Source: a virus. Taken from it: a stretch of 47,297 nucleotides of DNA. This document shows, piece by piece, positions 1,496 through 33,674 of this stretch. Every line of letters starts with the position of its first letter. Position 1 is the stretch's first letter. Location of the stretch: the IMG/VR virus record IMGVR_UViG_3300050821_005224, positions 1 through 47,297 of that record, one strand, 5' to 3'. Position numbers and translations under genes: made by a program. The notes under the pieces were generated by a model. The model saw nothing but the letters and a program-made list of their open reading frames with translations. It did no database searches and had not been told where the DNA came from.

Positions 1496-1518
1496 AAAAC
1501 ATAAAAACTTAGAGCAGA

Positions 1519-1569
1519 GAAAGAGAAGTAAAATGAAAGTCAAATGTGCGTACAGTGGTCTTCTCTTTC
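1519..1569 (+). promoter_or_regulatory. inverted repeat over the RBS and start of the 410-aa gene
   Basis: GAAAGAGAAG (1519-1528) and CTTCTCTTTC (1560-1569) are perfect 10-bp inverted arms with a 31-base loop containing the ATG at 1533. The left arm is the ribosome binding site itself; the right arm lies in codons 10-13. In RNA this would hide the ribosome binding site. Confidence 0.55.
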
Positions 1570-2765
1570 CTGTTCCAGGTTTTGCTGGAGTTAGAGTTGT
1601 AGGAGTAAGGGCGCCGAATTCTATAAATACTAAAGGCGGATTAATGGAAGAACTTCCTGGAGTAATGACAGGAGCACATCATCCAATCTTTGATATGGAT
1701 CAAATTAGTCTTTTAAGTTTATTGCCAAGTAAGAGAGGTTGGATTGATTGGATGATGTTGAAGAATAAAGGAGAGAAAAAGTTATTGTTCTTAGCTCTGT
1801 TAAAAGCGACTGGATTAGTTGAATTCCAATCTCCTGCATATCCGACAATGAGGACAATGAGTCAGAATATTGAGTTGTTAGTAAAAACAGTAAGATGGCA
1901 ATATATTGTTAATGATGTTGATTATAAGCTGCCAAAAATTGTTATTAACTACTCGAATAGGAAACTAGAAAATCTGTATCATTGGTTAGAAAGATGGAAT
2001 ATTTTAAAGATTGAATGGGCGAAAGACTATCGTTGGAAAGTGCAACAGGAGAAGTTAAAGTTAATTGAGGATAAGTTAGAGAAGAAGATTAAATCTCCAT
2101 ATACTGATATGGATAGAAAGACATATACAGATATGTTGGCTACTTGGGCATTAGATGCTAGTGGTGCGCCTAATAACATACGCGATTATTGGCGTTCAAT
2201 ATTTAATGTATCAATTAAAGGAACTGACATATACAATATTAAAGAAGTTGATATTATAGAATTGATAGAATTCATGGAAACTGAACTATTTAACCATACC
2301 GCTGAACATTTCGGATTTGGAACTATTCAAATGGTTTCTGTTCTTTCCCATCTTAGAAAGATACAGGAGATTAATAAAAAAGGTCTATTTGGCGCGATAG
2401 GAGGAATGACTTTCGAACTATTAGATAATGAAACTGAACAGCCATTGAATATTCATCCAGAAAAAGCCGCACTTGAGAAGATTTTGAATAATGCTCCAAA
2501 AGAAAAGCCAATTAAGGAACAATATCCAAATATTGTAGCATATCTTCGCGCGAAAAATGCGTGGGAGTTGAAAGAAAAACATATGAGTGATAGTGTAGTT
2601 AGAGAACAAATAAGGCAATTACAAGCTGAGCAAGATGAATTTAATTCCTTGCTAGCCGCAGAAGAGTTAGAAAATAATGCGTCAATACTTAGTGATGATG
2701 AGAGAGAGTTAGGAGTGAATTTGTCTTCAATTTCTTCAAAGGATAGGAGGATGGATAATGATTAA
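1533..2765 (+). CDS. early protein of unknown function, probably replication-associated
   Basis: A protein of 410 residues starting at 1533 after GAGAAG. I do not recognise a named domain. The N-terminus has CAYSGLLFPVPGF, the middle is rich in Trp and charged residues (around LYHWLERW and ATWALDASG), and the last 80 residues are highly charged and probably helical or disordered. It is the first large gene of a tightly packed cluster ending in the RecD-like helicase, and it overlaps the next gene by 8 bases. That position suggests a helicase loader, primosome or origin factor, but this is inference only. A 10-bp inverted repeat covers its ribosome binding site. Confidence 0.75.
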   Translation: MKVKCAYSGLLFPVPGFAGVRVVGVRAPNSINTKGGLMEELPGVMTGAHHPIFDMDQISLLSLLPSKRGWIDWMMLKNKGEKKLLFLALLKATGLVEFQSPAYPTMRTMSQNIELLVKTVRWQYIVNDVDYKLPKIVINYSNRKLENLYHWLERWNILKIEWAKDYRWKVQQEKLKLIEDKLEKKIKSPYTDMDRKTYTDMLATWALDASGAPNNIRDYWRSIFNVSIKGTDIYNIKEVDIIELIEFMETELFNHTAEHFGFGTIQMVSVLSHLRKIQEINKKGLFGAIGGMTFELLDNETEQPLNIHPEKAALEKILNNAPKEKPIKEQYPNIVAYLRAKNAWELKEKHMSDSVVREQIRQLQAEQDEFNSLLAAEELENNASILSDDERELGVNLSSISSKDRRMDND

Positions 2766-3000
2766 TCCAGAAAGGGACGAATTTATTAATAATGAATATG
2801 ATCGTCGAAGCTATAATAGGCTTCAACTTGCTCCGAATGTTTGTCATATTGAAAAAGAGAGTAATCCATATTCTATTGCAGAAAAGAATGCTACATTTGA
2901 GCAGAGTTTTGATGAAATGGTCAATATTTCTAAATTAATTCATACAAAACTCAACATCATTTGTGATACTCATCGTATGCGTTGGCAGAGGAGTAAGTAA
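2758..3000 (+). CDS. small hypothetical early protein
   Basis: An 80-residue protein that starts inside the end of the previous gene (8-base overlap), with GGAGG just upstream. It is polar and charged with no membrane segment and no recognised domain. Its last codons contain AGGAGTAA, which serves as the ribosome binding site of the next gene, so the two are translationally coupled. Function unknown. Confidence 0.65.
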   Translation: MINPERDEFINNEYDRRSYNRLQLAPNVCHIEKESNPYSIAEKNATFEQSFDEMVNISKLIHTKLNIICDTHRMRWQRSK

Positions 3001-3003
3001 ACT

Positions 3004-3192
3004 ATGATCAATCCAAAAGCTATGAAGCCAATTATTACAAAATATCTTGATATAATGATAATATCAGGAAATGATAAATCTGTATTTGCAGTGAGAATTT
3101 TACTCCCACTTCTTTTATTAAATCTATCAATGGCAATATTTTTCATAGGATATATTCCTCATTTTAATTTTGGCTACTGGAGGAGTAAATAA
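3004..3192 (+). CDS. small single-span membrane protein
   Basis: A 62-residue protein. Residues about 28-50 form one hydrophobic segment (VRILLPLLLLNLSMAIFFIG), so it is probably an inner-membrane peptide. It follows the preceding gene by 3 bases and ends with GGAGGAGTAAATAA, which supplies the ribosome binding site of the helicase gene. Membrane peptides of this size in early phage regions can be superinfection-exclusion or host-inhibitory factors. A lysis role is less likely in the early block. Function unproven. Confidence 0.55.
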   Translation: MINPKAMKPIITKYLDIMIISGNDKSVFAVRILLPLLLLNLSMAIFFIGYIPHFNFGYWRSK

Positions 3193-3196
3193 GAAA

Positions 3197-5338
3197 ATGG
3201 CTAATATTACTGCTGCGAAATTTCAAGAACTTCTCGCGCGAGCTAAAGCTATAGCAGCAGCGGCGAAAGAAGAAGATGAAGTAGCAAGTATTGCTACAAT
3301 TGAACAGTTAATGGAAAAGGAGAAACCAGATTATGTTGATAATACTTGCCATGAAGCAACCAACATTAATGGTCCAAGCACCATTTATGATGATGTTATT
3401 TCCAAATCCAAATCATTGGACACAGACTTGGAAGGATCTTCAGTTAAACTTCCAAGAATATACGGTGTTGCAAGAGACGATATTATACTCAATACCAAGC
3501 AACAACTAATTCAAGACACCATTCTAACTGGCGCAGATTGTGTATTAATTGGAGCAGCTGGAACAGGTAAAACTACTTCAATGCGCTCTGTTACTAGAAA
3601 ATTGATAGAAACAAATCAAGTGCCGAAATTACTTAATAACACTAAATGGCTACTCAGCGGTGTTCCAGGAATTCTTATCTGTTCCTACACACGAAAGGCA
3701 GTAAATAACATTCGCCACGCTGTAGTAGATGAACTTAAACAACATACCCTTACTCTTCATAAAGTTCTCGAATTTGCTCCTGTCTTCTACGAAATTCAAG
3801 ATCCGAAAGATCCAACTAAGTTCAAGAAAACAATGCGGTTTGAACCTCAACGTAATCGTTATAATCCACTTCCTAAAGAACTTCAGCTTATCATCTTTGA
3901 AGAAAGTTCAATGATTTCTGTTGAACTTTACCTAATGCTACAAGATGCTCTTCCTCATCCTCATCAAGAAGTATTTATTGGAGATATACAGCAATTGCCT
4001 CCGATTTTTGGTAAAGCTATTCTCGGTTTTAAGCTATCAATGTTACCCGTTATTGAACTAACAGAAGTTTACCGCCAAGCTCTTCAATCACCAATTATTG
4101 ATCTAGCTTGGAAAATTTTAAGTGGCGATCCTACTGGAAAGATTTTCTCTACTAAGACAGTAGAGAAGAAAGTATTCTCTCAAGTCTTGAAGAGAGAAGT
4201 TACTCGTATTGAAGTTCCATCTTTAATTACTTTGTCCCGTGAAACAGAATACGGCACTGTAATCTTCCAGCCCTGGCAGAAGAAACTTTCTGCTGATATG
4301 GCATTGAATACTTTCAATAAACAAGTTCAACAGTGGATAGAAGTTGATTACTTTAACCCAGATGAAGATATTATCCTCTGTCCATTTAATAAAGCATTCG
4401 GCACTATCGAGATCAATAAATCTATCGCTAATTATCTTGGCCGGAAACGCGGCGCAGTAGTTTATGAAGTAATCGCGGGGTATAATAAACATTATCTTGC
4501 TGAAGGAGATAGAGTACTCTTCGATAAAGAAGATGCTACTATTATCTCTATCAACCGTAACGGAGAATATCTAGGAAAATTATATCAAGCTCCTTCTATC
4601 CACCTCGACCGTCATGGTCATATGTCACAAAGTATATCCGAAGAAGAACGTCTTGCTCTACAGGCGGAAGATAATATAGACTTCAATGCCGAAGAAATTG
4701 ATAGAATGATGGAGTTGACAGTTGAAGCAATGAATAATGAGGAAAGAGTTCAAGCTGCTAGTCATATTGTAACGCTAAAATTAACATATAGTGATGACGA
4801 AGTTACTCTCTCTGACGCCGCAGAGATTAATAACTTACTCGGCGGCTATGCTCTTACAGTACACAAATTTCAAGGAAGTGAGAATGAGAAGATATTCTTT
4901 GTAATGCACGAAAGTCATAGAGTAATGAACCAAAGGGAACTACTTTATACTGCGGTTACAAGAGCAAAGAATTTCTTACACATAATCTGTGAAGTTGGTA
5001 CATTCTACAAAGGAGTTAAGTCTCAAAAAATCAAAGGAAATACGATCGCTGAAAAGTCACTTAAGTTTATTAACGAAAGTGCAAAGATGGAAGAAATTCA
5101 GGCGATTAGTAATCAATTGAAGAAAGAAGGAGATAAGCATAAGTTGGTTAGGAAAGTTGTAGAAACTGAGGATATTCATGAATATATAAATGGAATTGAA
5201 GAGATTAGTAATTACAAAGAGTTAGATAATCACACTATTTCTACTATAGTAGTTCCAGTAGAGACAGTAGCAGTAGTTAATCCTATTGAAGTTGCTCGTC
5301 AGAAGTTAGCTGAACTTCGCGCCAGGAAAGGAAGATAG
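3197..5338 (+). CDS. RecD/Dda-like superfamily 1B DNA helicase
   Basis: A 713-residue ATP-dependent 5'-3' helicase. The start at 3197 is chosen because GGAGGAG ends about 11 bases upstream; an ATG at 3170 precedes that site. Walker A GAAGTGKTT is at residues 119-127, Walker B/DEAD-like IIFEESS at 232-238, GDIQQLPP (motif III) at 262-269, HKFQGSE (motif V) near 556-562 and YTAVTRAK (motif VI) at 584-591. The C-terminal half matches the UvrD_C_2 domain of RecD2 and phage Dda. The first 100 residues are acidic and low-complexity. It probably unwinds forks or helps recombination with the nuclease and ATPase encoded downstream. Confidence 0.93.
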   Translation: MANITAAKFQELLARAKAIAAAAKEEDEVASIATIEQLMEKEKPDYVDNTCHEATNINGPSTIYDDVISKSKSLDTDLEGSSVKLPRIYGVARDDIILNTKQQLIQDTILTGADCVLIGAAGTGKTTSMRSVTRKLIETNQVPKLLNNTKWLLSGVPGILICSYTRKAVNNIRHAVVDELKQHTLTLHKVLEFAPVFYEIQDPKDPTKFKKTMRFEPQRNRYNPLPKELQLIIFEESSMISVELYLMLQDALPHPHQEVFIGDIQQLPPIFGKAILGFKLSMLPVIELTEVYRQALQSPIIDLAWKILSGDPTGKIFSTKTVEKKVFSQVLKREVTRIEVPSLITLSRETEYGTVIFQPWQKKLSADMALNTFNKQVQQWIEVDYFNPDEDIILCPFNKAFGTIEINKSIANYLGRKRGAVVYEVIAGYNKHYLAEGDRVLFDKEDATIISINRNGEYLGKLYQAPSIHLDRHGHMSQSISEEERLALQAEDNIDFNAEEIDRMMELTVEAMNNEERVQAASHIVTLKLTYSDDEVTLSDAAEINNLLGGYALTVHKFQGSENEKIFFVMHESHRVMNQRELLYTAVTRAKNFLHIICEVGTFYKGVKSQKIKGNTIAEKSLKFINESAKMEEIQAISNQLKKEGDKHKLVRKVVETEDIHEYINGIEEISNYKELDNHTISTIVVPVETVAVVNPIEVARQKLAELRARKGR

Positions 5339-5340
5339 CT

Positions 5341-5679
5341 ATGGCTGCTAGAGATGAACAAAATTTTGTATCCACAGATAGTTTGGAAGCGGCTCTTCAA
5401 CTCCTAAATTGGAATAACATTAGAGTTTCAAAAGAATTAGGTTATTCTTCTAGCGCAATATCGAATTGGCGTTTGGAAAAAAGAATGCCTAGAGTTGTTA
5501 GTTTAGCACTAGAGCGAATTTTAGACGGAAAAACTGTAGATGTTGAAGTTCCTGAAACTCTAATACTAATTAAAGCGAAGAATGGTAAATCTTCTGTTAT
5601 TTGGTCAGGTTATCCTCAAGGAAAAGTAGAATTAAATGGAAAAGTATTTCTTCTTGTACCTTATGAAGAAGGAAAGTAA
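5341..5679 (+). CDS. small helix-turn-helix (XRE/Cro-like) protein
   Basis: A 112-residue protein. Residues about 14-63 (LEAALQLLNW to SLALERILDG) look like a Cro/C1-type helix-turn-helix, with SSSAISNWRLEKRMP as the recognition helix and following turn. The C-terminal 45 residues may form a beta-rich domain. It starts 2 bases after the helicase stop and is probably a DNA-binding regulator of early genes; its target sites are unknown. Confidence 0.7.
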   Translation: MAARDEQNFVSTDSLEAALQLLNWNNIRVSKELGYSSSAISNWRLEKRMPRVVSLALERILDGKTVDVEVPETLILIKAKNGKSSVIWSGYPQGKVELNGKVFLLVPYEEGK

Positions 5680-5681
5680 CT

Positions 5682-5921
5682 ATGACTAAGAATATGAAAG
5701 AAGTTACTATTCAACTTTCTCCTATGGAAGTTGTTCTAATTCGGCGCACAAATTGGCTTAGGACTATTAATGAAAGTATTCAAATTATTGAACTTCTCAG
5801 ACCAAAATCTCCAATAGAAGGACGTAGTTCATTAGATGACACACTAGCAGATTTAGAGTCTATGAGGAATAAAATAGAGAAGATACGAATTAAACTTCTA
5901 GTGGGGTTAGATTTATTATGA
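5682..5921 (+). CDS. small hypothetical protein, helical
   Basis: A 79-residue protein, largely helical. The second half (LADLESMRNKIEKIRIKLL) has coiled-coil spacing. It starts after AAGGAA and overlaps the next gene by 4 bases (ATGA). A 7-bp inverted repeat (5675-5681 with 5702-5708) encloses the first codons but is short enough to be chance. No family recognised. Confidence 0.55.
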   Translation: MTKNMKEVTIQLSPMEVVLIRRTNWLRTINESIQIIELLRPKSPIEGRSSLDDTLADLESMRNKIEKIRIKLLVGLDLL

Positions 5922-6133
5922 CTCTCCCTTCTGGCGGACAATTCGATAAACTCTCCGATAATGGAGATCATTATTCTCAATTGAGAGAAGAATTAGGAAG
6001 GGAAATGACTAGAGATGAATGGTATAGATATCAATATATACAATTTTTATTCTTTGAATATTCTCGAAGAAATAGGGAAATTAGACAAGCGATTGCATTC
6101 TGGAAATCTCTAGCTAAAGGAGACAAGAAATGA
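5918..6133 (+). CDS. small hypothetical protein
   Basis: A 71-residue protein translationally coupled at both ends by 4-base ATGA overlaps. It contains LREELGREMTRDEWYRYQ and a basic, aromatic C-terminus (FFEYSRRNREIRQAIAFW). It is probably a soluble helical protein; I recognise no domain. Confidence 0.55.
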   Translation: MTLPSGGQFDKLSDNGDHYSQLREELGREMTRDEWYRYQYIQFLFFEYSRRNREIRQAIAFWKSLAKGDKK

Positions 6134-6933
6134 CCTCAATTGGTCGCTTTGAGCCCTGTTTTGAGCAGTCTATCATTTCTACTTTCAAGGAAAATGAGAC
6201 AGAATGTATGAAATTTATTGAAGAAAACACTAGTAAAGATGAGTCTGCTTTTGTAAAATCTCTAATTAGTGGATATCATAGATATAAAAACTTCAATGCG
6301 AAACAATATCCATATATTGTTGGATACTATCTCCTTCTAACTAAAGCAGTAAATGGAGAGTGTAACGAAGATTATGAACAAGAGCATAGAGTAAGTGCGC
6401 GAAAAGGCACCTTAACTTTCCAAGAAATTTCTGGCATTTCCATTCTCAATCTTCTTCGTACTGCTATAGCTAACGGTAAACAAGACCCATTTATCGACTA
6501 CACTCCAGAATATTCTCCAGAAGAAAGTTTTTGTAAAAAAGTTCGCTTTTGCCTTCCTAAATATGCCGATGAAAAAGGTGCATTTATCCTTAACTATACT
6601 CCAAACGCTAAAGCTGATGGAAAGCTATTCCTTGGCTCCATTCATCTTGATGGTTATGTAGATTGGACAAGTCTAGCTAAGAGTGAGCCAAAGTTAGTTT
6701 TAGAACTTCAGAAACTTTTTCAAAATCCAGTAGATTGTCTGGCTCGCGCTGGAAGGAGATTAATTTGTTGTTGTTTCTGTGGTAAACAATTAGACACATC
6801 TATTTCCCGATATCATGGTTATGGACCAGTTTGCGCCGGTAAATTTGGACTTCCTTGGGAAGGAGATCCTAATAAGATTACTGATAAAGATAAAAATAAT
6901 AAAGGTCCAGAAGATTTGTTAGCTTCATTGTGA
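6130..6933 (+). CDS. zinc-ribbon protein, DUF6011-like C-terminus
   Basis: A 267-residue protein. Near residues 213-240 it has CCCFCGKQL, then SRYHGYGPVCAGKFGLPW. This is the CxxCG...GYGPVCA pattern of the DUF6011-type zinc ribbon common in phage and actinobacterial proteins. The N-terminal 200 residues are unassigned. The last residues (EDLLASL) resemble the acidic-hydrophobic tail of several neighbouring early proteins. It is probably a nucleic-acid-associated early protein; the exact role is unknown. Confidence 0.7.
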   Translation: MTSIGRFEPCFEQSIISTFKENETECMKFIEENTSKDESAFVKSLISGYHRYKNFNAKQYPYIVGYYLLLTKAVNGECNEDYEQEHRVSARKGTLTFQEISGISILNLLRTAIANGKQDPFIDYTPEYSPEESFCKKVRFCLPKYADEKGAFILNYTPNAKADGKLFLGSIHLDGYVDWTSLAKSEPKLVLELQKLFQNPVDCLARAGRRLICCCFCGKQLDTSISRYHGYGPVCAGKFGLPWEGDPNKITDKDKNNKGPEDLLASL

Positions 6934-6950
6934 AGCAACGGAGAAAGAAG

Positions 6951-7208
6951 ATGACTTCCTGCGCTCACTCTAAAGACTCCCATTTTACTCGCTCCTTCTA
7001 TCCAATAAAGGAACAATATACTCCTATTCAAATTCCATCTCCTACTCGGAGAGATAAAGACTATCCTATTGAACCTCGTCTAGCTCAACTATCTATCCTC
7101 TATGAACGTATCTTCAATCCTAATCCTCGCTTTGTATTAGAAGCGATAGGAAGGGCTATAGTAAATAACAGAAAATCTCTACTTGACACTGAAGCCGCCC
7201 GCGAGTAA
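6951..7208 (+). CDS. small hypothetical early protein
   Basis: An 85-residue protein. I choose ATG at 6951 because GGAG at 6940-6943 is correctly spaced; a GTG at 6930 in the same frame is possible. The first half is rich in Pro, Tyr and basic residues (PIQIPSPTRRDKDYPIEPR). The second half looks helical (LSILYERIF...EAIGRAIVNN). No family recognised. Confidence 0.55.
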   Translation: MTSCAHSKDSHFTRSFYPIKEQYTPIQIPSPTRRDKDYPIEPRLAQLSILYERIFNPNPRFVLEAIGRAIVNNRKSLLDTEAARE

Positions 7209-7266
7209 GCTACAACTCCCATCAAAGAGCACTCCTGCTCACAACTATGGAAAGAGAGTAAATAAA

Positions 7267-8043
7267 ATGAGTGAAGTCCAGACTTCTGCTACTGTCGAAA
7301 CGGCAAAGAAGCCAGTTGTTGAACTCCAGCATCGTCATCATCATGATGAGTCTACTGGAAAAGATCATCCTCTCACTATGTCTCGCGAGATGAAGTTTTC
7401 TTTCCGCACTATTGTTGTAGACGGTCCTCAAGTTAAGGAGCCTGTTACTGGCGCTCCTGCAACGAAGGATGATAAGAAGTCGGCTGCGGCAAAGAAGGAT
7501 ATCTACGTTATCAAGCGTCCTAGTCTAGAGTTAGTTCTTCCTGTTCCAACTCCTTACGGTATTCATCGCGCACTTCAAGATGATAAGTGTCGCGATTGGC
7601 TTGTCAATGTTGTAGCAGATCAAATTCGTGATGCTGCAATTTGGCAGATTGCTCCTGATGAAGGTACTGCGGTCAACAGTCAGGAAGCACTCGACTATAA
7701 CAAGTTGACAATTGAGTATCTTGCCAATCTTCCTCCTTCGGAACGTGGAGTTGGTATTAGAAAGGAGAAGTGGGAGCTCTGGGAAGCAGATTACAAGGCT
7801 GTTATGCCTGCGGTTACTGGAAAGAATGAGAAGCAAATTCAGACTGCTCTTGACTTGTTCTTGAAGCGTCTTCAGCCTTGTCGTGGGAATAAGAAGGTTC
7901 TTGCGGCCCTCAAGGAACAGCTTTCTCTGTGGATTGCAAACAGCCAGAATGCTGAAGAATTCGGAGATATCGCACTCTATCTCGATGGAAAGCTCGATGC
8001 TTTCATGAGTGCAGATGAGGAGGCGTTGCTGGCGAACTTGTAG
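7267..8043 (+). CDS. abundant early protein of unknown function, possible ssDNA-binding role
   Basis: A 258-residue protein starting at ATG 7267 after GAGAG. It has a His-rich patch (QHRHHHDE) near residue 25, then KRPSLELVLPVPTPYGIHRAL. This beta-strand plus PTP-helix region resembles a family I recall from many environmental phages without assigned function. The C-terminal half is helical and ends in DEEALLANL. Codon choice is richer in C and G than in its neighbours, a pattern shared with the putative SSB gene and suggesting strong expression. It is followed by the only clear intrinsic terminator in the early block. A structural role in replication is plausible but unproven. Confidence 0.75.
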   Translation: MSEVQTSATVETAKKPVVELQHRHHHDESTGKDHPLTMSREMKFSFRTIVVDGPQVKEPVTGAPATKDDKKSAAAKKDIYVIKRPSLELVLPVPTPYGIHRALQDDKCRDWLVNVVADQIRDAAIWQIAPDEGTAVNSQEALDYNKLTIEYLANLPPSERGVGIRKEKWELWEADYKAVMPAVTGKNEKQIQTALDLFLKRLQPCRGNKKVLAALKEQLSLWIANSQNAEEFGDIALYLDGKLDAFMSADEEALLANL

Positions 8044-8067
8044 AAGCTAGTAGTCTAATTACTGAAG

Positions 8068-8102
8068 CGGCGGATTGGCAGAAATGTCTTTCCGCCGTTT
8101 TT
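8068..8102 (+). terminator. Rho-independent terminator after the 258-aa gene
   Basis: CGGCGGA (8068-8074) pairs perfectly with TCCGCCG (8091-8097), followed directly by five T residues (8098-8102). It lies 24 bases past the stop codon at 8043. As it sits inside the early block, it must either be partial or separate two transcription units. Confidence 0.8.
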
Positions 8103-8120
8103 GTAAGGAGATTACAGTAG

Positions 8121-8420
8121 ATGCCTAATGAAAAATACTGTATAAACTGTCATTGGAGTAAATTAATTGGAAATTTTAATACTGCTAGTAGTTTTATATG
8201 TTGTGAACCAAGATTTATGTACACTGAAAAATCTCCTGTAACAGGGAATTATGAACCTATAGTCACTATAACTTGTATAGAGGCACGAGCAACAGAAAGA
8301 TATTGTAGTAAAGAAGGTAAATGGTTTATGTCCATAGCAGAATGGTTAGCCAAATTGCAAAAAGAAGATCCTGCTAGTGCTACAAAGAGATTAAGTAAAA
8401 TTACGGTAGATGATCTTTAG
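8121..8420 (+). CDS. small cysteine-rich (zinc-ribbon-like) protein
   Basis: A 99-residue protein beginning YCINCHWSK, with further Cys at about 28-29, 52 and 63 and a YCSKEGKWF motif. This CxxC...C...C-(x)n-GKWF arrangement is common in small phage proteins of unknown function and probably binds zinc. The tail ends ITVDDL, like two neighbouring early proteins. AAGGAG at 8105-8110 is the ribosome binding site. A 7-bp inverted repeat (8113-8119 with 8136-8142) encloses the start codon. Confidence 0.65.
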   Translation: MPNEKYCINCHWSKLIGNFNTASSFICCEPRFMYTEKSPVTGNYEPIVTITCIEARATERYCSKEGKWFMSIAEWLAKLQKEDPASATKRLSKITVDDL

Positions 8421-8428
8421 ATAGTAAA

Positions 8429-8779
8429 ATGAGTAATATCATTTCTTTAGTAGATATCTTAAATGACGATAGTCTTGAAGATGAGGATCAAGAACAAGAA
8501 CAAGAACAACAAGTATCTGCTAGACAAATTTATGAACTTCTTTTCGCTGGTAAGAAACTTCAAATGCACTTTTCTACTATTGGAAAAGTTAGATCCTTCT
8601 CTACTCGAATTTACAAACTTAAGAAATCTCAAGAAGAACAACTTGTCGGTTGTGGATTTATGAAAGAAGAGGATAGGAATAGTTTTAAAATAGAATATGA
8701 TGAGGAGAAGAAGTTAGCTACTTTTTCTTTCGTAGTTAAAAAACCACTTAAAAGATATGTTGTTGAAATTGTCGAATAG
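8429..8779 (+). CDS. small acidic/basic hypothetical protein
   Basis: A 116-residue protein with an acidic Asp/Glu/Gln run at residues 11-28 and a basic alpha/beta region (RQIYELLFAGKKL to VVKKPLKRYVVEIVE). The start codon lies in a 6-bp hairpin (AAATGA with TCATTT). Its C-terminal half resembles the next protein in spacing of hydrophobic and basic residues, so the two may be distant tandem paralogues. Function unknown. Confidence 0.55.
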   Translation: MSNIISLVDILNDDSLEDEDQEQEQEQQVSARQIYELLFAGKKLQMHFSTIGKVRSFSTRIYKLKKSQEEQLVGCGFMKEEDRNSFKIEYDEEKKLATFSFVVKKPLKRYVVEIVE

Positions 8780-9029
8780 AATTAATGGCTTCAAAAGTCA
8801 ATATGATCCAGTTTGGTTTAATTTGAAAAGAGATAAAACAGTAAAGCTGCGCGTGCCACTTCAATTTGTTGATAGAGTTAAGAAAGCTATTATTAAACGA
8901 AAAGAGAAAGATAAAGTATTCAAGTTTGAAACTCAAGATAATCCACCGAGAATAGTAACAGTGTATAATCATAGTACAGAAGTATTAGTTTTCACATTGA
9001 AGTACGGAACGACAGAAGAGGATTTGTAG
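8757..9029 (+). CDS. small basic hypothetical protein with TTEEDL tail
   Basis: A 90-residue protein overlapping the previous gene by 23 bases. The ribosome binding site is weak and the start uncertain. Basic in the middle (VDRVKKAIIKRKEKDKVFKF), then a strand-rich end (RIVTVYNHSTEVLVFTLKYG) and the tail TTEEDL. It may be paralogous to its upstream neighbour. Function unknown. Confidence 0.5.
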   Translation: MLLKLSNRINGFKSQYDPVWFNLKRDKTVKLRVPLQFVDRVKKAIIKRKEKDKVFKFETQDNPPRIVTVYNHSTEVLVFTLKYGTTEEDL

Positions 9030-9030
9030 G

Positions 9031-9498
9031 ATGGCTACTAGAATAATTTGGAGTAAATGTAGACACAATCATACTGAATGTCAATGTGGTACTTTTCATC
9101 CTATCGAAATAGAGATAGAAGAAGTTATATCCGACAAAACTAATCCTAAAGACCTTCTTGGAGTTAAAAAAGTCCCATTTCGATTTGTTCCTCCAATTAT
9201 TATGATTTACGCTAGTAAAGTATTTGAACTTGGGGCGAAGAAATATGGTCAAATGAATTGGAGAGAAAAAGATGTTAGACTTTCTATCTACATTGAAGCT
9301 GCGCAAAGACATTTATTTGCAATGCAGGATGGAGAGTTTGTAGATAAAGAAAGTGATATGCCCCATGCAGCTCATGTAATTGCATGTATGGGGATTATAC
9401 TTGATGCAGATAGTTTGAACAAGTTAGTAAATGATCTTCCAATTTCTGGAAAAGCGGCAATTGTAATGGATTTGTTGGATAGAAGTAAGAAGGAGTAG
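9031..9498 (+). CDS. putative dATP/dGTP diphosphohydrolase-like protein
   Basis: A 155-residue protein. DLLGVKKVPFRFVPP followed by FELGAKKYGQMNWREKD, then AAQRHLFAMQDGEFVDKESDMPHAAHVIACM, matches the DUF5664 (dGTP diphosphohydrolase N-terminal) family of phages. Members have the metal-binding helices of all-alpha NTP pyrophosphohydrolases and are thought to trim dNTP pools. The extra N-terminus carries two Cys and several His (CRHNHTECQCGTFH), a possible metal site. Together with the MazG-like gene at 16804, the phage has two pool-modifying enzymes. Confidence 0.75.
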   Translation: MATRIIWSKCRHNHTECQCGTFHPIEIEIEEVISDKTNPKDLLGVKKVPFRFVPPIIMIYASKVFELGAKKYGQMNWREKDVRLSIYIEAAQRHLFAMQDGEFVDKESDMPHAAHVIACMGIILDADSLNKLVNDLPISGKAAIVMDLLDRSKKE

Positions 9499-9505
9499 AA
9501 GTAAA

Positions 9506-9805
9506 ATGACTGATATCCAATCTGCTCCTCTATCTAATATTGACCAATTAGCGGAAAAGTTACTAGAACTTCAGCGGCGACTTCAACAACAACAACCTAA
9601 CTATGAACAACTTCTTCAAATTATCCATCGAGAACTTCAGAAAGATGAAAATATGGTTCATCTTTTGAGCGATGAACAAGTTGGAACTATAGTAGCAGGA
9701 TTGAGTAAGAAGAAAGGAATAGTTATTGCAGAAATGGCGAAAACAGCAAGTGGGAAGGTTAAGGAAAATAAGAGATTGGCGGCCGTTACAGTGGAGGATT
9801 TGTGA
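9506..9805 (+). CDS. small helical protein with TVEDL tail
   Basis: A 99-residue protein, strongly helical with a Gln-rich stretch (LQRRLQQQQPNYEQLLQ) suggesting a coiled coil. It ends KRLAAVTVEDL, the same type of tail as the Cys-rich protein at 8121. The ribosome binding site is AAGGAG. It overlaps the next gene by one base (TGATG). Function unknown. Confidence 0.55.
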   Translation: MTDIQSAPLSNIDQLAEKLLELQRRLQQQQPNYEQLLQIIHRELQKDENMVHLLSDEQVGTIVAGLSKKKGIVIAEMAKTASGKVKENKRLAAVTVEDL

Positions 9806-10008
9806 TGTCTGATCCATTTGTTGTTTTCAAGAATAAAGATGGTACATATAATGGAGTAGAGATGTTAGCTCAATTAACAAGACTATCTCATAAAGAGATA
9901 TATTGGACGTTTATGAGATTGAAGCAATTAATCCATATTGAGCATAAATCTCTTGAAGAGGCAAAAAAGATAGTAAAGCAAGAAGTTAAATTGGAGCCTT
10001 GGAAGTGA
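9805..10008 (+). CDS. small hypothetical protein
   Basis: A 67-residue protein. I choose ATG 9805, in a TGATG overlap with the previous stop and with GGAGG at 9793-9797; a GTG at 9802 is also in frame. It contains GTYNGVEMLAQLTRLSHKEI, which could form a small winged or helix-turn-helix-like unit, but this is weak. It overlaps the nuclease gene by 4 bases. Confidence 0.5.
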   Translation: MSDPFVVFKNKDGTYNGVEMLAQLTRLSHKEIYWTFMRLKQLIHIEHKSLEEAKKIVKQEVKLEPWK

Positions 10009-10976
10009 CTATTATTCATCCCAACCTTAAACTTCTATCTGACTCCTCAGATAAACTTCTCCATTCTTGTCCTAGGAAATATGAACTATATAAACTTCTT
10101 CTTCAACCAGAGTTTGATAGTGAAGAAGCTACTGAACAAAGAGAAGATACACATTTATCATTTGGAACTCTTGTCGGTTATGGTGTTCAGCGTTATCTTA
10201 CTCATTTAGATCTTAATCGTGCTCAAGTAGAAATGTTAGCGAAGTGGCCGCGCGAACTTGATGCAGATTTGGAGAGTAAAAGTAAGAAGTCATTTTGGCA
10301 TGCATTGATAGCGTTAGATAACTTCCCATTCTTTTTTCAAGAAGAATATCCAGATTGCCAACTTTATCGTATGGATTTAAGTAAATTGGATCCTCAAAAT
10401 GAGCCAGCCACTGAACTAGGCTACATTGTCGATTGTGGAGAGGGTTTCTACGATCGGGGATTTATTGATGCTGTACTCATTAATACTAAACATAATATAT
10501 TAATCACTATTGATTGTAAAACAACTAGTGGAAGAAATCCTCATGAAGCAGCTTATCAAAATCTCTCTCAAGTTCTCGGTTATAGTTTAGTTCTAGATAC
10601 TATTACTTCTTCTCTTGATAATTTTAATTCTTCGTTTAATGCAGATTACATAGTTTGGTCATCTACAGGAATGGAATGGAAAAAGTTTTCTTTTCCAAAG
10701 AGCCGTCTTCAGAGAAGTTTGTGGATTAAGAATAAACTCCTAACTATGAAACATATAGCTGAGTATAGTGAAGAAAATTACTTTCCAATGTATGGAGAAA
10801 GTTGTTTCTCTTATTTTAAACTTTGTCAATATTTTGGTGTTTGTGAATTGAAAAATGAATATTGGTTTCCTAGAGGGGTAGAAAGTATTCCAGTTAAAGT
10901 TGATGATTTATCTCGGTATCAGTTTCATTTCAAGTTAGAAGATATCATTGAAGCACAGTTGGCGATGGAGGGTTAG
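10005..10976 (+). CDS. PD-(D/E)XK nuclease, Cas4/RecB-like
   Basis: A 323-residue protein. The GTG start at 10005 is chosen because GGAG at 9993-9996 fits it better than the TTG at 9999. The nuclease core is GFIDAVL (Asp155), then ITIDCKTT (Asp170-x-Lys172) and a QNLSQVLGYS helix, the RecB/Cas4 order. One Cys near the N-terminus (SCPRKYEL, Cys22) and three near the C-terminus (about 267, 274 and 280) could bind an iron-sulfur cluster as in Cas4/AddB. It sits directly upstream of the RecA/Sak4-like ATPase and polymerase, fitting a recombination exonuclease role. Confidence 0.85.
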   Translation: MTIIHPNLKLLSDSSDKLLHSCPRKYELYKLLLQPEFDSEEATEQREDTHLSFGTLVGYGVQRYLTHLDLNRAQVEMLAKWPRELDADLESKSKKSFWHALIALDNFPFFFQEEYPDCQLYRMDLSKLDPQNEPATELGYIVDCGEGFYDRGFIDAVLINTKHNILITIDCKTTSGRNPHEAAYQNLSQVLGYSLVLDTITSSLDNFNSSFNADYIVWSSTGMEWKKFSFPKSRLQRSLWIKNKLLTMKHIAEYSEENYFPMYGESCFSYFKLCQYFGVCELKNEYWFPRGVESIPVKVDDLSRYQFHFKLEDIIEAQLAMEG

Positions 10977-10978
10977 TT

Positions 10979-11323
10979 TTGGCTACTCCTATAACTTTAG
11001 AGCAAAAAAGACAGTTACTAAAAGAATTTGAGGAATTTCTTGATAAATTACTATTTTGGCCAATTAAACCAATTCCGGCTCAATTTCAAGGTATAGGATT
11101 AGTTAGGCAATCTTGCCAAGTGAAGGAGAAAGGAAATGCTATGCCTGTTACCGCTTGGGCTACTCTATTTGTCAATCTCATTGCTCATTCTGGCGCTACT
11201 GTTGCTGACGTCCAGGCAACAGTTGCAAAGGTCCAAAATGACCACGGTAATCTACCTCAAGAAGCGATTGATGCCGCGGCAGGTCTTGCTAAGACAATGG
11301 AAGACCTACTCGCTGGCATCTAA
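10979..11323 (+). CDS. small early protein with a likely internal start
   Basis: A 114-residue protein starting at TTG 10979, supported by GGAGG at 10967-10971. A second in-frame ATG at 11141, preceded by AAGGAGAAAGGAA, would give a 60-residue product. From that point the codons become C/G-richer. The short form (MPVTAWATLF to MEDLLAGI) is helical, and its tail resembles other early proteins. The N-terminal part may be a separate module or a fusion. Function unknown. Confidence 0.55.
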   Translation: MATPITLEQKRQLLKEFEEFLDKLLFWPIKPIPAQFQGIGLVRQSCQVKEKGNAMPVTAWATLFVNLIAHSGATVADVQATVAKVQNDHGNLPQEAIDAAAGLAKTMEDLLAGI

Positions 11324-11348
11324 CTGCATCTGAGAAGAATGAAATGAT

Positions 11349-11399
11349 TTGCCGAGCAGGAGTATTGAAATGAAAGCTTCTCAAGAAACTGCTCGGCAA
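11349..11399 (+). promoter_or_regulatory. inverted repeat enclosing the start of the ATPase gene
   Basis: TTGCCGAGCAG (11349-11359) and CTGCTCGGCAA (11389-11399) are perfect 11-bp arms. The 29-base loop contains most of the ribosome binding site and the ATG at 11370. The arms are G+C-rich relative to their surroundings, and the right arm codes for Ala-Arg-Gln. Likely RNA hairpin controlling translation. Confidence 0.6.
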
Positions 11400-12398
11400 G
11401 TTAATCATATTCTAATCCAAGGAGAACCTCTTACAGGAAAATCTACTCTTGCTTCTAAAATGGCAGAATTGGGATGGAATTTAATTTGGTTCTCAATGGA
11501 TGGAAATCATTCTATTCTATCTAAACTAAGCAAAGCCGCACAAGATAGAGTAACTTTAATCCGTCTTCCAGATACTAGAGAATTCCCTATCGCCGCGGAT
11601 GTTATTAGAAAAGTTAGTAAATATCCTCTTGAAGATTGTAATATCTGTGATAATCATGGAATGGTTAATTGCTCAGTTTGTCAGAAAGTTAATCTACCTT
11701 TTGAGTTAATAAATTTGGGGCGCTTGCCGCAGAATACTATAGTAGTATGGGATAATTTATCTCAACTATCTGATAGTTTTATTAATCTTATTACAAAAAA
11801 TAAGCCAGTAGATTATAAACTCCAATTAGACGATTGGGGAAGTCTTCGTTTCCATATGATGGATATCCTGAATAGAATTAAAGTTGCTCCTTATAACTTG
11901 ATCTGTATAAGTCATAGTATTGAAGCGTTAGATGAAGCAGGAAATAAGAAACTTATGCCAATGGTTGGAAGTGCGGAATTTAGTAGGAAAGTAGCAGGAT
12001 ATTTTGATGATGTTATTTTCCTTTCGCTCAGTAATAATAAACACAGACAAGGAAGTAGTACAACTTATACCCATCAAGCAGTTGTAGGGAGTAGAAGAGA
12101 TATTAAAATTGAGGACATGAAAGAGCCAAGTTTAGCACCATTCTTTAACTGGATTGAGCCTACTATAGTAGAAAACAAGGAAAAGGAGAAAGAAGATGTG
12201 GGATCGGGAAAATCTGACAACATTATTCCTATTCCTTCTAGGACTATTAATAGCGATAGTAGTTTGGAGTCTAGTAGACTATCTTCAGACACAATAGTTG
12301 CTCATAGGGGGGAAGAGGCAGTAAAAGTAGAGGAGAAAGAAGATCCAATTGCTAAAGCAAAAGCTATGCTGGCTAAGATGAGAGGAGGAAAGAGGTAA
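11370..12398 (+). CDS. RecA/Sak4-like ATPase (recombinase)
   Basis: A 342-residue protein starting at ATG 11370 after CAGGAG. Walker A GEPLTGKST is at residues 18-26 and a Walker B-like strand TIVVWDNLSQ at 123-132. This order and the following SLRFHMMDILNRIK helix fit the phage AAA_24/Sak4 recombinase group. A CxxC-x7-CxxC zinc-knuckle insertion (Cys 90, 93, 101, 104) lies between the two motifs. The C-terminal 80 residues are charged and end AKAMLAKMRGGKR. It probably anneals or exchanges strands with the nuclease and SSB candidates nearby. An 11-bp hairpin surrounds its start codon. Confidence 0.8.
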   Translation: MKASQETARQVNHILIQGEPLTGKSTLASKMAELGWNLIWFSMDGNHSILSKLSKAAQDRVTLIRLPDTREFPIAADVIRKVSKYPLEDCNICDNHGMVNCSVCQKVNLPFELINLGRLPQNTIVVWDNLSQLSDSFINLITKNKPVDYKLQLDDWGSLRFHMMDILNRIKVAPYNLICISHSIEALDEAGNKKLMPMVGSAEFSRKVAGYFDDVIFLSLSNNKHRQGSSTTYTHQAVVGSRRDIKIEDMKEPSLAPFFNWIEPTIVENKEKEKEDVGSGKSDNIIPIPSRTINSDSSLESSRLSSDTIVAHRGEEAVKVEEKEDPIAKAKAMLAKMRGGKR

Positions 12399-12400
12399 TT

Positions 12401-12694
12401 ATGTCTAATTCCACTAAATCCTCCTTCCAGCAACAAGCTGAATATAATAAAAGAACTATTCAAACTTCTATTGAACTATACATGGGAACTATATTTCAAA
12501 TTACCACAAGCGCTCTTGAACTTATGAAATACCAAGAAGATGAATTAGCTCTTCTGCGCGAATTAGAGTATAAAGTACGTCATCTAGAATTAGATCTAGA
12601 CTCCTGGCCGCCAATTAGAGATTCTTTAGATGCTTTACGTTCCCAGCATCAAACATCTACAACTCAGGTAATGGGAGTATCTAAAAATGACTGA
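12401..12694 (+). CDS. small coiled-coil hypothetical protein
   Basis: A 97-residue protein with a strong site AGGAGGA upstream. It is helical, with leucine spacing around LALLRELEYKVRHLELDLDSW. TCCTCCT inside codons 7-9 (12419-12425) is complementary to the AGGAGGA site (12383-12389). It overlaps the SSB candidate by 8 bases. It may be a partner of recombination proteins; no family recognised. Confidence 0.6.
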   Translation: MSNSTKSSFQQQAEYNKRTIQTSIELYMGTIFQITTSALELMKYQEDELALLRELEYKVRHLELDLDSWPPIRDSLDALRSQHQTSTTQVMGVSKND

Positions 12695-13133
12695 CCATCC
12701 GAAGTTTGATCTAGACAACTCTACTCTCGATGATATTGAAGATCTTCCATCTTTCCTCACTTTTCCCGACGGCGCCTATCTCTGTCTCCTTCATGAAGGT
12801 TTTGAAGAAAAGGAGATTAACGAGAAGCAGGCTGTTTCTATTCCCATGACATTGAAGCAGATTATGGAATGCTCTGCTCCAGATGAAGAGAAGCCAAAGG
12901 AAGGAGATATCTGTAATACAGCCTACATGTTGGACAATGAGACTGGACGCGGTTTCTTGAAGGAGAGACTGAAGGAGATTAGTAGTGGGCTTAATCTTCC
13001 AAAGTCAGCAACGACTAGGGAGATTATGAAGGCCGCGAAGGGAGTTACAGTTCTTGCGATTTTGAAAAGGACTACTGATAAGGTAGATAAGGATAAGCAT
13101 TATCAGAAGATTGTGAAATTGGCAGTTACCTAA
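12687..13133 (+). CDS. putative single-stranded DNA-binding protein
   Basis: A 148-residue protein. The order is: acidic N-terminus; LPSFLTFPDGAYLC and ISIPMTLKQIMEC-like strands; GDICNTAYMLDNETGRGFLKE; KAAKGVTVLAILKRTTDK; and YQKIVKLAV. It matches my recollection of an OB-fold-like family found next to Sak4 ATPases and polymerases in environmental phages. Codon use is C/G-richer than in neighbours, consistent with an abundant DNA-coating protein. The identification rests on context and a remembered pattern, so it is tentative. Confidence 0.5.
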   Translation: MTDHPKFDLDNSTLDDIEDLPSFLTFPDGAYLCLLHEGFEEKEINEKQAVSIPMTLKQIMECSAPDEEKPKEGDICNTAYMLDNETGRGFLKERLKEISSGLNLPKSATTREIMKAAKGVTVLAILKRTTDKVDKDKHYQKIVKLAVT

Positions 13134-13147
13134 CTTTTTCGCGCCAC

Positions 13148-13212
13148 GATAAGGATCATCTAAATGGGTATTGATGTTCTATTCCATCATACTTTTGAAG
13201 ATGATCCTTATC
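13148..13212 (+). promoter_or_regulatory. 14-bp inverted repeat over the polymerase RBS and start
   Basis: GATAAGGATCATCT (13148-13161) and AGATGATCCTTATC (13199-13212) are perfect 14-bp arms. The left arm contains the ribosome binding site AAGGAT; the 37-base loop contains the ATG at 13164; the right arm lies in codons 12-17. A small inner hairpin (TGATG with CATCA, 8-base loop, 13172-13189) fits inside the loop. T4 DNA polymerase is known to repress its own translation by binding a hairpin over its ribosome binding site, so autoregulation is a plausible role here. Confidence 0.65.
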
Positions 13213-16816: not shown

Positions 16817-17172
16817 CTTTTAAAGACTTCTCTGAGATAAATAGAAAAAGAGAGGATCTGTTCAATACTACTACACATTCCTGTGCGCATTGGTCATTAG
16901 CAGATTGGTCTAATGCTACTTTCGGAGAAGTAGGAGAAGCGGCGAATATAATAAAGAAAATTAGAAGGGGAGACTTTTCTTTAGCAGAGAAGAGAGAAGA
17001 CCTTGCTATGGAATTAGCAGACATATTTATATATTTAGATATACTTGCAACTAAAGCTGGAATAAATTTAGGGGAAGCTATTAAAACAAAATTTAATATT
17101 ACTTCTAAAAAATGGAATGCTCTTGAAGATGAGTTTATAATTATAGCAGACACACGAAACGAGGAGATCTGA
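16804..17172 (+). CDS. MazG-like nucleotide pyrophosphohydrolase
   Basis: A 122-residue protein. I choose ATG 16804 because GGAGAG is correctly spaced; an upstream frame to 16756 is merely open. GEVGEAANIIKK (Glu42, Glu45) and ELADIFIYLDILATKAG (Glu70, Asp73) form the ExxE...ExxD metal site of all-alpha NTP pyrophosphohydrolases. It probably hydrolyses (d)NTPs or lowers an alarmone signal in the infected cell. It is the second pool enzyme after the DUF5664 gene. Confidence 0.88.
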   Translation: MGYLTFKDFSEINRKREDLFNTTTHSCAHWSLADWSNATFGEVGEAANIIKKIRRGDFSLAEKREDLAMELADIFIYLDILATKAGINLGEAIKTKFNITSKKWNALEDEFIIIADTRNEEI

Positions 17173-17173
17173 A

Positions 17174-17449
17174 ATGGCACAATCTCAAACTGGCTATAAA
17201 CTCCTCTGTGTTGGAGGACCTTTGGATAGAACTAGAGTACAAAGAGCTACTCTAGATCGCTATTTTACTTATACGGAAAGGGAAGAAGTATCAAATGAAG
17301 ATACAAATGAAATTTTTGTATCTATGAAAGAGCATACTTATACTCTTATACAACTATTCAATAATGGCGCCACAGTTATGTTTTACGCGTTGAGTACAGT
17401 AACTGACAGTCAAGCAATTAAAATGATGATGGAGGCTTATGCGAAATGA
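17174..17449 (+). CDS. small hypothetical protein
   Basis: A 91-residue soluble protein beginning with GYKLLCVGGPLDRTRVQ and containing YTLIQLFNNGATVMFYALS. It is strand-rich. Phage proteins opening with CVGGPLDG-like motifs are common and uncharacterised. Its ribosome binding site GAGGAG (17161-17166) is complementary to CTCCTC within the gene (17201-17206). It overlaps the next gene by 4 bases (ATGA). Confidence 0.6.
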   Translation: MAQSQTGYKLLCVGGPLDRTRVQRATLDRYFTYTEREEVSNEDTNEIFVSMKEHTYTLIQLFNNGATVMFYALSTVTDSQAIKMMMEAYAK

Positions 17450-31016: not shown

Positions 31017-33674
31017 TTAGAACTGGCTACATTTGACAAGAAGATTATCTCCTGCAGTCCAAGCATGAGTAGCACCGTCAGTTCCATAATTAGTTAGCGT
31101 AGCTGCCCCAACTCCATAAGCAGTTTCTTTAGTTTGAAATACTGTAGTGCTCTGCGTTGTTAAATCTGTAGCACTGCAATTCCATCCATTATTAGCTCCA
31201 GGTCCAAGAGCAAGAACTCCTGTACTGGCAGTTCCTCCAGTACCAATAACAAGAATAAAAGAACTAGGTCCTACATCTGAAGTAGCAGGAATAGTTGGAG
31301 ATGTACCAAATCCAGAAGTAACAGTTGGAGGAATATATGCTTGAGAGACTGAGTATCTTGATCCAAGAGTATTATTAAATCCCGCGGCCGTAACATTTAC
31401 CATTTGACTAAGACTTGAATTAATAATAGCATCTCCTGGAAAATTAGATATAGTAGCTGCGTTAGTCCCATTACTAGTAGGATGAAGATCCACATTATAT
31501 GCTGCGCTAAGATTTAATTGTATATTCCATCCAGCAAATAATCCTGGAAGGAAACAATAAGTATTACCACTTACTGCAGAAATGAAAAAAGTTAATCCAT
31601 CTTCATCTGCTTGAAAACAATGAGCTTGAGGATTATCTGTAATAGTTACAGCTGTATTAGTTGCAGTTGCAGGAGCATTTTGTGGGTTATCAAATAGAAT
31701 ATTTCCCCCGCTTTGATCAGGACGAAATGGCTTAAATCCTCTTAGATAACTTCCAGAAGGAATACCCGTACCAGAAATAGCATCTCCATTTACAAGACTT
31801 GGAAATGGTACATTAGTAATGAGATTAAACCCCACTGCGCCAGAAGTAACTGTAACTCCAGAATATACTTGACCACTTCCTAAAGTTATCGTGTCATTAG
31901 TATTAGTGCAAGAAGGAGTAGTATTCGGGCCAAGTTTAATTTGCCCTTGAGTCCAAACATAGAAACTAACAATACTTCCCCCAGGAAGACAGCCTCCATT
32001 ATCAGTAATACTAGTTCCAATTAGAGGAAATATACTAACTGAAGTAAGAGAGAAACTTCCATTAGTTACAGTTGCTGTAAAAGTAGAACTTCCCTGAGAA
32101 GGATGACTACTAAAAGAATATTGAGAGCTAGTAACACTTCTTTGATTTATAAAATTTATCTGGTCTAGAGATTGAATATTCCAAACATCTGAGTCGATAG
32201 TTCCAGTACTATCTTCCAAAGCAGCAAATGGTTTATACATCCAACTACCAATATCTGCCCCCACTTGATAAGAGTTAAGTTGAGTTGGATCAAAACTTAC
32301 ACGATTAGTAATAGTAACTCCGGCACAAGCAAATGTAGTACACCCCGTCATTAGAACAAGAGGAGCATCGAGCATTCCTGGACGATATAATTCTGTTAAA
32401 TTCCCAGTCAATTGAACATAAGGAATTGCACCAGAAGGAGAGTAAATATGTAACTCTCCAGCGTCAATAGTCATATCCGAAATTATTCCACCCCCTTGGT
32501 AAGTTAAAGCTACTGTAGGATAATATGGTCCACCTACTTGAGCACCCATACCATTATAGACATGAGTTCCATGAATATCAATATCATTGCAGTTAAATCC
32601 AGTAAACACTGCTTGTTGAGTAAAAGAGATATCTCCTCCTTCTATTGTGCTATCTGCAGTATTTCCATCAAACCAAATACCAAATCCTGTACGTGAGTTG
32701 ATATTAGAGTAAGTACCTTCTGTAATAATTGCTTTATTAATTTTAATCCCTGTCCCAATTCCTGCAACAAACACACCTACATGATTAAAGCCATAAATAT
32801 AGTCATTGTTAAGATAAAGTGGCGCATCAAAATTTGCACTATTCTCCTCATAATCTGTTACGGGAACACAATACGTTATACCATTACAATCTAGAATAGA
32901 ATTATCATCTTTCATCCCATAAGTTCCTGGACCAAAATCTAATATTCCAACTGGCATAGCTCCCCAAACTATTGCTCCACTTGCAGTATAGCCAGAGGAG
33001 TAAGTAGATCCTCGGAGTAAAATAGCTGAAGAATTTAGAACTTGAACATTATTCCATTCCTGAACTAAAGGAGTAGAGATAGATCCTACACCAAGTCCTC
33101 CAATTGCACTAACTAATACTGTTTGCCCCGAAGATACTGTAGTTAGTGGAGTAGCAAGATTAAGTTGGAATTGCCCGCCATTATTTGTAACTGAAGAAAC
33201 TACTGAATTTGGCCACTTACTACCAAGAGTAGTAGGACACCAAACATTAGGAATTACTTGATACGGACCAGAAGTATTATTAGGCATAATAACTGGTAGA
33301 TTACATCCTGCAGAAATACCCTCATCCCAATTAGCTCCTGGAATAGCATGAAGGTTAAGATTAGTATGTACTCCAGGACAATTTGTAATATGAATTGGTT
33401 TAGAAGTAGCTTCTGCAATACCTCCATCTGTTACTGTAACGCCGCCGTAAGGATAGGAATTAAGATTATAGGACTGTTGACAGGCGAAAGCAAATGCAGA
33501 AACAAGTGCACTATAGTTATCCGCCCCAGTTTTAGTCTGAGCATTCCAGTTTAACTTAGCTCCAGGAACATCTCTAACATTAACAGTAAGAGAAGGAGTA
33601 TAAGCTGCTTGAACAGCAATAGTTGGAAGGAGAAGGATAAAAGAAGAAACTGAAGATAGAAGGAGCTTTCTCAT
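31017..33674 (-). CDS. tailspike, pectate-lyase-like beta-helix, with signal peptide
   Basis: An 885-residue protein. The N-terminus MRKLLLSSVSS, FILLLPTIAVQA is a typical Sec signal peptide with cleavage predicted after VQA. The start at 33674 overlaps the previous stop (ATGA); an ATG at 33686 is in frame. Residues about 280-400 have strand repeats such as SNINSRTGFGIWFDGNTADS and NCNDIDIHGTHVYNG, the beta-helix pattern of tailspikes and polysaccharide lyases. A C-terminal beta-rich region follows. It is the likely receptor-binding or depolymerase protein; its export signal is unusual for a virion protein. Confidence 0.75.
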   Translation of the reverse strand: MRKLLLSSVSSFILLLPTIAVQAAYTPSLTVNVRDVPGAKLNWNAQTKTGADNYSALVSAFAFACQQSYNLNSYPYGGVTVTDGGIAEATSKPIHITNCPGVHTNLNLHAIPGANWDEGISAGCNLPVIMPNNTSGPYQVIPNVWCPTTLGSKWPNSVVSSVTNNGGQFQLNLATPLTTVSSGQTVLVSAIGGLGVGSISTPLVQEWNNVQVLNSSAILLRGSTYSSGYTASGAIVWGAMPVGILDFGPGTYGMKDDNSILDCNGITYCVPVTDYEENSANFDAPLYLNNDYIYGFNHVGVFVAGIGTGIKINKAIITEGTYSNINSRTGFGIWFDGNTADSTIEGGDISFTQQAVFTGFNCNDIDIHGTHVYNGMGAQVGGPYYPTVALTYQGGGIISDMTIDAGELHIYSPSGAIPYVQLTGNLTELYRPGMLDAPLVLMTGCTTFACAGVTITNRVSFDPTQLNSYQVGADIGSWMYKPFAALEDSTGTIDSDVWNIQSLDQINFINQRSVTSSQYSFSSHPSQGSSTFTATVTNGSFSLTSVSIFPLIGTSITDNGGCLPGGSIVSFYVWTQGQIKLGPNTTPSCTNTNDTITLGSGQVYSGVTVTSGAVGFNLITNVPFPSLVNGDAISGTGIPSGSYLRGFKPFRPDQSGGNILFDNPQNAPATATNTAVTITDNPQAHCFQADEDGLTFFISAVSGNTYCFLPGLFAGWNIQLNLSAAYNVDLHPTSNGTNAATISNFPGDAIINSSLSQMVNVTAAGFNNTLGSRYSVSQAYIPPTVTSGFGTSPTIPATSDVGPSSFILVIGTGGTASTGVLALGPGANNGWNCSATDLTTQSTTVFQTKETAYGVGAATLTNYGTDGATHAWTAGDNLLVKCSQF

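Follow-up and report, generated by a model that had tools for sequence, protein, structure and literature searches.

In phage T4, helices that form over the SD sequence or the AUG of the genes e, soc, 49, and I-TevI reduce binding of the 30S subunit (PMC3014915). In these genes, as in mobE of the Aeromonas phage Aeh1, the helix is a cis-acting leader structure that takes up the SD, the AUG, or both within a long polycistronic transcript, and a late promoter lies within its 5′ arm (PMC3014915, PMC2988022). Sequestering start hairpins of phages have so far come chiefly from T4 late genes and homing-endonuclease genes. Another phage RNA hairpin, the gp43 operator of T4 and RB69, sits where translation of the DNA polymerase begins; it is a small upstream hairpin whose partly conserved loop is bound by gp43 itself (PMC3014915). 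In Bacillus subtilis, a hairpin of more than 20 bp has been proposed to block translation of read-through RNA of sigG, a gene with a mapped promoter whose own transcript cannot form the hairpin (PMC5942855). Here, we compare with these systems three hairpins that enclose the starts of early genes in a virus record of 47.3 kb, which was analyzed as a whole (the window).

Results

Because the ends of the record repeat directly over 188 bases (positions 1 to 187 versus 47110 to 47297, with a single length difference in a G run), the window probably represents an entire phage genome. Early genes, so labeled on the basis of gene content and position, run rightward up to about 18.9 kb, and most others run leftward. 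The order of the former, in which a Sak4-like ATPase gene is followed by small genes, a family A DNA polymerase gene, and a DUF3987/primase gene, is shared with the Fredfastierviridae (Pseudomonas phages PaP2 and PaMx41), and the polymerases are homologous. However, identity to the PaP2 polymerase is only ca. 27%, and the polymerase and Sak4-like genes of PaP2 start without a hairpin; start hairpins were also absent from the cultured relatives Aeromonas P5, Tiera, and EBPR podovirus 3. No phage record matched the window at the DNA level. The closest related polymerases in environmental viral contigs share about 50% identity with that of the window, and some 100 related polymerases from such contigs served as our comparison set. 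Searching the viral contigs with Sak4, the 410-aa gene, or the polymerases of two relatives, L091 and L092, revealed no closer relatives, bacterial genome contigs yielded mostly distant polymerases (22 to 25% identity), and an Rfam search gave no match. Elsewhere in the early region, the product of a 155-aa gene (9031 to 9498) matches phrog_2252, "endolysin; inhibits RNA polymerase" (E = 3e-36), and also a pyrophosphohydrolase family. A terminator-like stem (CGGCGGA/TCCGCCG, 16-nt loop, then TTTTT) at 8068 to 8102 sits in the 77-nt gap ahead of the gene at 8121.

An initial annotation of this DNA had pointed to perfect inverted repeats of 10, 11, and 14 bp around three early starts, and these are present exactly where it placed them (Table 1). 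The layout that it described holds for all three: the left arm, whose perfect part begins 14 (410-aa gene), 21 (Sak4), or 16 (polymerase) nt upstream of the ATG, lies at or beside the SD, the ATG is in the loop, and the right arm falls within early codons. The arms of the three genes do differ in sequence, as it had claimed. Its designation of the three as replication genes is apt for the polymerase and, loosely, for Sak4, but not for the 410-aa gene, which has no recognizable function. Weak relatives of the 410-aa protein (23 to 40% identity, five loci) were too distant or cut off for a comparison of the start region, and structure prediction gave no usable model (pLDDT, 50).

Table 1. Positions of the three genes and of the hairpins around their starts (z, folding z score)
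Feature	Coordinates	Strand	Remarks
410-aa gene, no assigned function	1533-2765	+	No Pfam or PHROG match
410-aa hairpin, left arm	1504-1528	+	Holds weak SD; 23 bp with one-base bulges; z, -2.82
410-aa hairpin, right arm	1560-1583	+	About codons 10 to 17
410-aa perfect repeat, 10 bp	1519-1528 / 1560-1569		GAAAGAGAAG / CTTCTCTTTC; loop, 31 nt
Sak4-like AAA ATPase / ssDNA annealing gene, 342 aa	11370-12398	+	phrog_124, E = 2e-18; PF13479, E = 2e-10
Sak4 hairpin, left arm	11345-11359	+	15 bp with G-U; SD GGAG at 3′ edge; z, -4.08
Sak4 hairpin, right arm	11389-11403	+	About codons 7 to 12; includes rare CGG codon
Sak4 perfect repeat, 11 bp	11349-11359 / 11389-11399		TTGCCGAGCAG / CTGCTCGGCAA; loop, 29 nt
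Family A DNA polymerase gene, 774 aa	13164-15488	+	PF00476, E = 2e-26; phrog_17, E = 7e-63
Polymerase hairpin, left arm	13148-13161	+	Holds SD AAGGAT; SD unpaired probability, 0.00; z, -4.67
Polymerase hairpin, right arm	13199-13212	+	Codons E-D-D-P-Y-L
Polymerase perfect repeat, 14 bp	13148-13161 / 13199-13212		GATAAGGATCATCT / AGATGATCCTTATC; loop, 37 nt

With G-U pairs and small bulges allowed, the stems of the 410-aa gene and Sak4 grow as listed in Table 1, while that of the polymerase stays at 14 bp. By folding energy, the three starts take the first three places in stability among 52 folded start regions, and their local stability is predicted at -26 to -28 kcal/mol. The predicted unpaired probability of the SD region is 0.10 for the 410-aa gene and 0.38 for Sak4. 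An SD or AUG that is held in, or enclosed by, a stable leader helix is thus predicted for the polymerase and the 410-aa gene and in part for Sak4, whose SD sits at the stem edge. Across relatives, folding energy without a G+C control was uninformative because G+C-rich loci dominate; within-genome percentiles, swaps, and z scores were used instead.

Four of the 53 starts in the window are enclosed by repeats of at least 10 bp, compared with 0.30% of internal positions (expected number, 0.16; binomial P = 2e-5), and the excess persisted at other sizes of the scanning window. The expected number bears out the rough initial estimate of well under one by chance. In our leader-swap null, each leader was paired with the codons of another gene, so that composition, SD sequences, and codon bias were preserved; at least 10 bp was reached in 0.53% of swapped pairs inside the window (permutation P = 0.00035; P = 0.00045 for summed repeat lengths). 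Leaders thus match the first codons of their own gene better than those of others. Equally long repeats at internal positions, named at the outset as one observation that would count against the set, proved rare. The remaining start of the four belongs to a minus-strand gene (33671 to 33985), and its repeat encloses a long loop. Once the four are left out, the excess in the window vanishes (P = 0.22), and the signal hence comes from a few outliers and is no general property of starts. The three main inverted repeats are not chance products.

Random synonymous recoding of the first 25 codons retained the observed match length in 0.7% (Sak4), 2.5% (410-aa gene), and 12% (polymerase) of trials. 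The early polymerase codons TCCTTA resemble an anti-SD, so complementarity is partly built in there, a feature for which the leader-swap test controls. The motif D-x-P-Y-L of the protein largely fixes the polymerase codons, and it is the leader that supplies the match. For Sak4, none of 4,154 internal positions pairs as well, and the CGG in the right arm is the rarest arginine codon of the genome (27 of 607).

Other repeats in the window that had been proposed alongside these were rejected as members of the set. The weaker cases at 12383 to 12425 and 17161 to 17206 have 6- to 7-bp arms, which by length are at chance level, given that no excess is left without the four longer repeats; the start within the former, at 12401, ranks fourth by folding energy. 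The 10-bp repeat said to cover the start of the 246-aa gene, which is on the minus strand, in fact lies entirely upstream of the ATG (repeat, 46783 to 46815; ATG, 46780) and has the SD in its right arm, a layout unlike that of the other three. About 150 nt upstream of this gene is a promoter-like TTGACC-17-TACATT (46933 to 46961). Just downstream of the gene, on the minus strand and within 460 nt that hold no clear gene, is the longest perfect inverted repeat of the window (45967 to 46025; 15 bp with a 29-nt loop).

The three hairpins occupy three of the five early junctions, out of 28, at which the gap exceeds 25 nt (P = 0.003); their own gaps measure 30 to 46 nt. From the upstream stop codon to the left arm there are 14 nt (polymerase), 21 nt (Sak4), or 8 to 23 nt (410-aa gene). 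We infer from these distances that ribosomes terminating on the preceding gene stay short of the arm core and that upstream translation would leave the hairpin closed.

Among about 100 related polymerases, a strong start-enclosing hairpin was found in two relatives beyond the window, L091 and L092. Of 103 polymerases, with that of the window counted, 2 have start-enclosing repeats of 12 bp or more, compared with 0.04% of leader swaps (binomial P = 0.0007), and 3 have repeats of 10 bp or more, compared with 0.38% (binomial P = 0.007). The 14-bp repeat is confined to the window among the 103 and arose in none of 10,506 leader swaps. The L091 hairpin is a 12-bp repeat that uses the same codons as the window and carries one compensatory change: a T in the left arm is G, and an A in the right arm is C, so that the pair is preserved (T:A to G:C) while the codon changes from GAT (Asp) to GCT (Ala), giving D-A-P-Y in place of D-D-P-Y. 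The two leaders are identical at 13 of 14 nt over the left arm, a level reached by 3 of 5,211 leader pairs, and have little similarity further upstream. The L092 hairpin (10 bp perfect, ca. 23 bp when a bulge and G-U pairs are allowed) uses different codons; because its pairs lie about 10 nt further on, its helix is a different set of pairs from that of the window and L091. Folding z scores of the polymerase starts were -4.1 (L091) and -4.0 (L092), and in a second test with a fixed region, L091 (-5.4), the window (-4.8), and L092 (-4.0) were the three lowest among 15 clade polymerases. Outside the clade, two start regions were equally low in that test, those of the L037 primase and the L182 polymerase.

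L091 and L092 are sisters (support, 100/99) within a 12-member clade that includes the window phage. A hairpin occurs in 2 of the 11 other members, with compensation in one, and most close relatives lack it, among them L003, the sister of L091 plus L092. Mapped on the polymerase tree, it needs two changes, which may reflect one gain followed by losses or two gains. Hairpins of 7 to 8 bp in L008, L013, and L016, considered as further cases, fell within the swap background. Three genomes and one compensatory pair are suggestive of conservation of the polymerase hairpin. Covariation across relatives, which had been put forward as a test, is thus suggested for the polymerase, where L091 has the compensatory pair and L092 a hairpin in a new register, but not for Sak4, whose hairpin is absent from the other 92 Sak4 starts.

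Across the starts of Sak4 (93), exonuclease (77), primase (100), and the 148-aa gene (91), the Sak4 gene of the window is the sole case of at least 10 bp. When all starts of related phages were taken together, such repeats occurred at 3 of 1,310, versus 0.39% of internal positions, and the difference between own and swapped repeat lengths was -0.16; starts in these phages generally avoid start-enclosing repeats. Two of the three exceptions are the polymerase gene (L010/L091 and L084/L092). In another branch, primase starts fold strongly (z of -4.75 in L037 and -3.57 in L177), and in both the ATG adjoins a GCCGGAGG/CCTCCGGC helix.

Discussion

On balance, we think it fairly probable that cis-acting mRNA hairpins limit the translation of three early genes at uncoupled junctions. 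In the long early transcript, the left arm, with or beside the SD, would pair with the first 7 to 17 codons, leaving the AUG in a loop of 29 to 37 nt, and loading of the 30S subunit on finished RNA is predicted to be hindered. The modeled stability of these hairpins would nearly stop loading on folded RNA, and it seems excessive for a polymerase that the phage cannot do without, unless there is a kinetic window or a helper. Since the loops are 29 to 37 nt long, the SD and ATG emerge from RNA polymerase clearly ahead of the right arm, and the simplest way through would therefore be for ribosomes to load on nascent RNA before the right arm is transcribed. Each elongating ribosome presumably would melt the stem, and output would track new transcription and drop on old mRNA. 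A bolder possibility is a "nascent-only" control shared by several genes, in which the polymerase, the recombinase, and the third early protein are made only from RNA still in transcription, the early codons of each gene later closing its own ribosome site, and in which the complementary arm arises anew, in other registers, while the coding sequence drifts. We consider this extended version rather unlikely.

The main alternative to such nascent loading is a promoter within the arm itself. In that case, the hairpin would silence transcripts initiated upstream, as with T4 e and I-TevI, while a promoter in or just after the left arm would give a leader that cannot fold and is translated on time. 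The anatomy is that of e, I-TevI, and mobE, genes whose native start site comes after the 5′ strand of the helix, and it also matches the sigG read-through hairpin; the noncoupled gaps, moreover, could hold a promoter. However, our scan found no sigma-70-like promoter ending in or near the three left arms (a phage-specific promoter would escape it), no motif common to the three leaders was seen by eye, and the known T4 cases are late genes whereas those of the window are early by position. We regard this explanation as unlikely. It is also quite unlikely, in our estimate, that the hairpins merely reflect built-in complementarity, with purine-rich SD leaders pairing with pyrimidine-rich early codons and a few long cases surviving neutrally. 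The lack of any excess once the four long cases are removed, the restriction of the Sak4 hairpin to a single genome, and the anti-SD-like polymerase codons would all fit such an origin. Against it stand the leader-swap permutation, which keeps composition, SD, and codons, the frequency of repeats of at least 12 bp among the 103 polymerases, the compensatory change in L091, and the avoidance of repeats at the starts of relatives.

Autogenous repression of translation, with the polymerase or Sak4 protein bound to the hairpin at its own start as for T4 gp43, has some appeal, given that two of the three products are nucleic acid binding by family and that gp43 of both T4 and RB69 binds a hairpin upstream of its own start. 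Such an operator would be expected to keep its loop bases, as in T4 and RB69; instead, the hairpins described here enclose the AUG, and arm and loop sequences differ both among the three genes and among the window, L091, and L092. In addition, gp43 belongs to a different polymerase family, and we find autogenous control very unlikely. Lastly, the repeats might be RNase III sites or act at the DNA level (as a protein-binding palindrome or a recombination or replication signal), with their position over starts incidental. A stem of about 23 bp is long enough for RNase III, and those of the 410-aa gene and L092 reach this length. That the three arms are unrelated in sequence speaks against a DNA-binding site, loops of 29 to 37 nt are unusual for a palindromic operator, and the ATG lies in the loop each time; this origin seems to us extremely improbable.

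If translational control by the hairpins is borne out, phages would be able to limit their replication proteins with no repressor involved. A polA hairpin recurs across viruses whose polymerases share only about 48% identity, and comparing own with swapped leaders would then offer a simple comparative test for such controls in uncultured phages.

Sequestering start helices are already well described in T4 and have been proposed for sigG, and the window hairpins most likely resemble them. As in T4 and Aeh1, a cis leader helix is predicted to take the SD and/or AUG in a long polycistronic transcript; unlike the late and homing-endonuclease genes of those phages, with their late promoter in the 5′ arm, the polymerase, Sak4, and 410-aa genes are early by position, show no sigma-70-like promoter near the left arms in our scan, and have the right arm in about codons 7 to 17. 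The window shares with the gp43 operator an RNA hairpin at the start of a phage DNA polymerase, but the helix here is long, varies in sequence, and encloses the AUG of a family A polymerase. It shares with sigG a long hairpin that may block translation, although sigG is a bacterial gene with a mapped promoter. What sets the window apart is the occurrence of such helices on early replication genes, a partner arm drawn from the coding sequence, and a polA helix that recurs in partly new registers.
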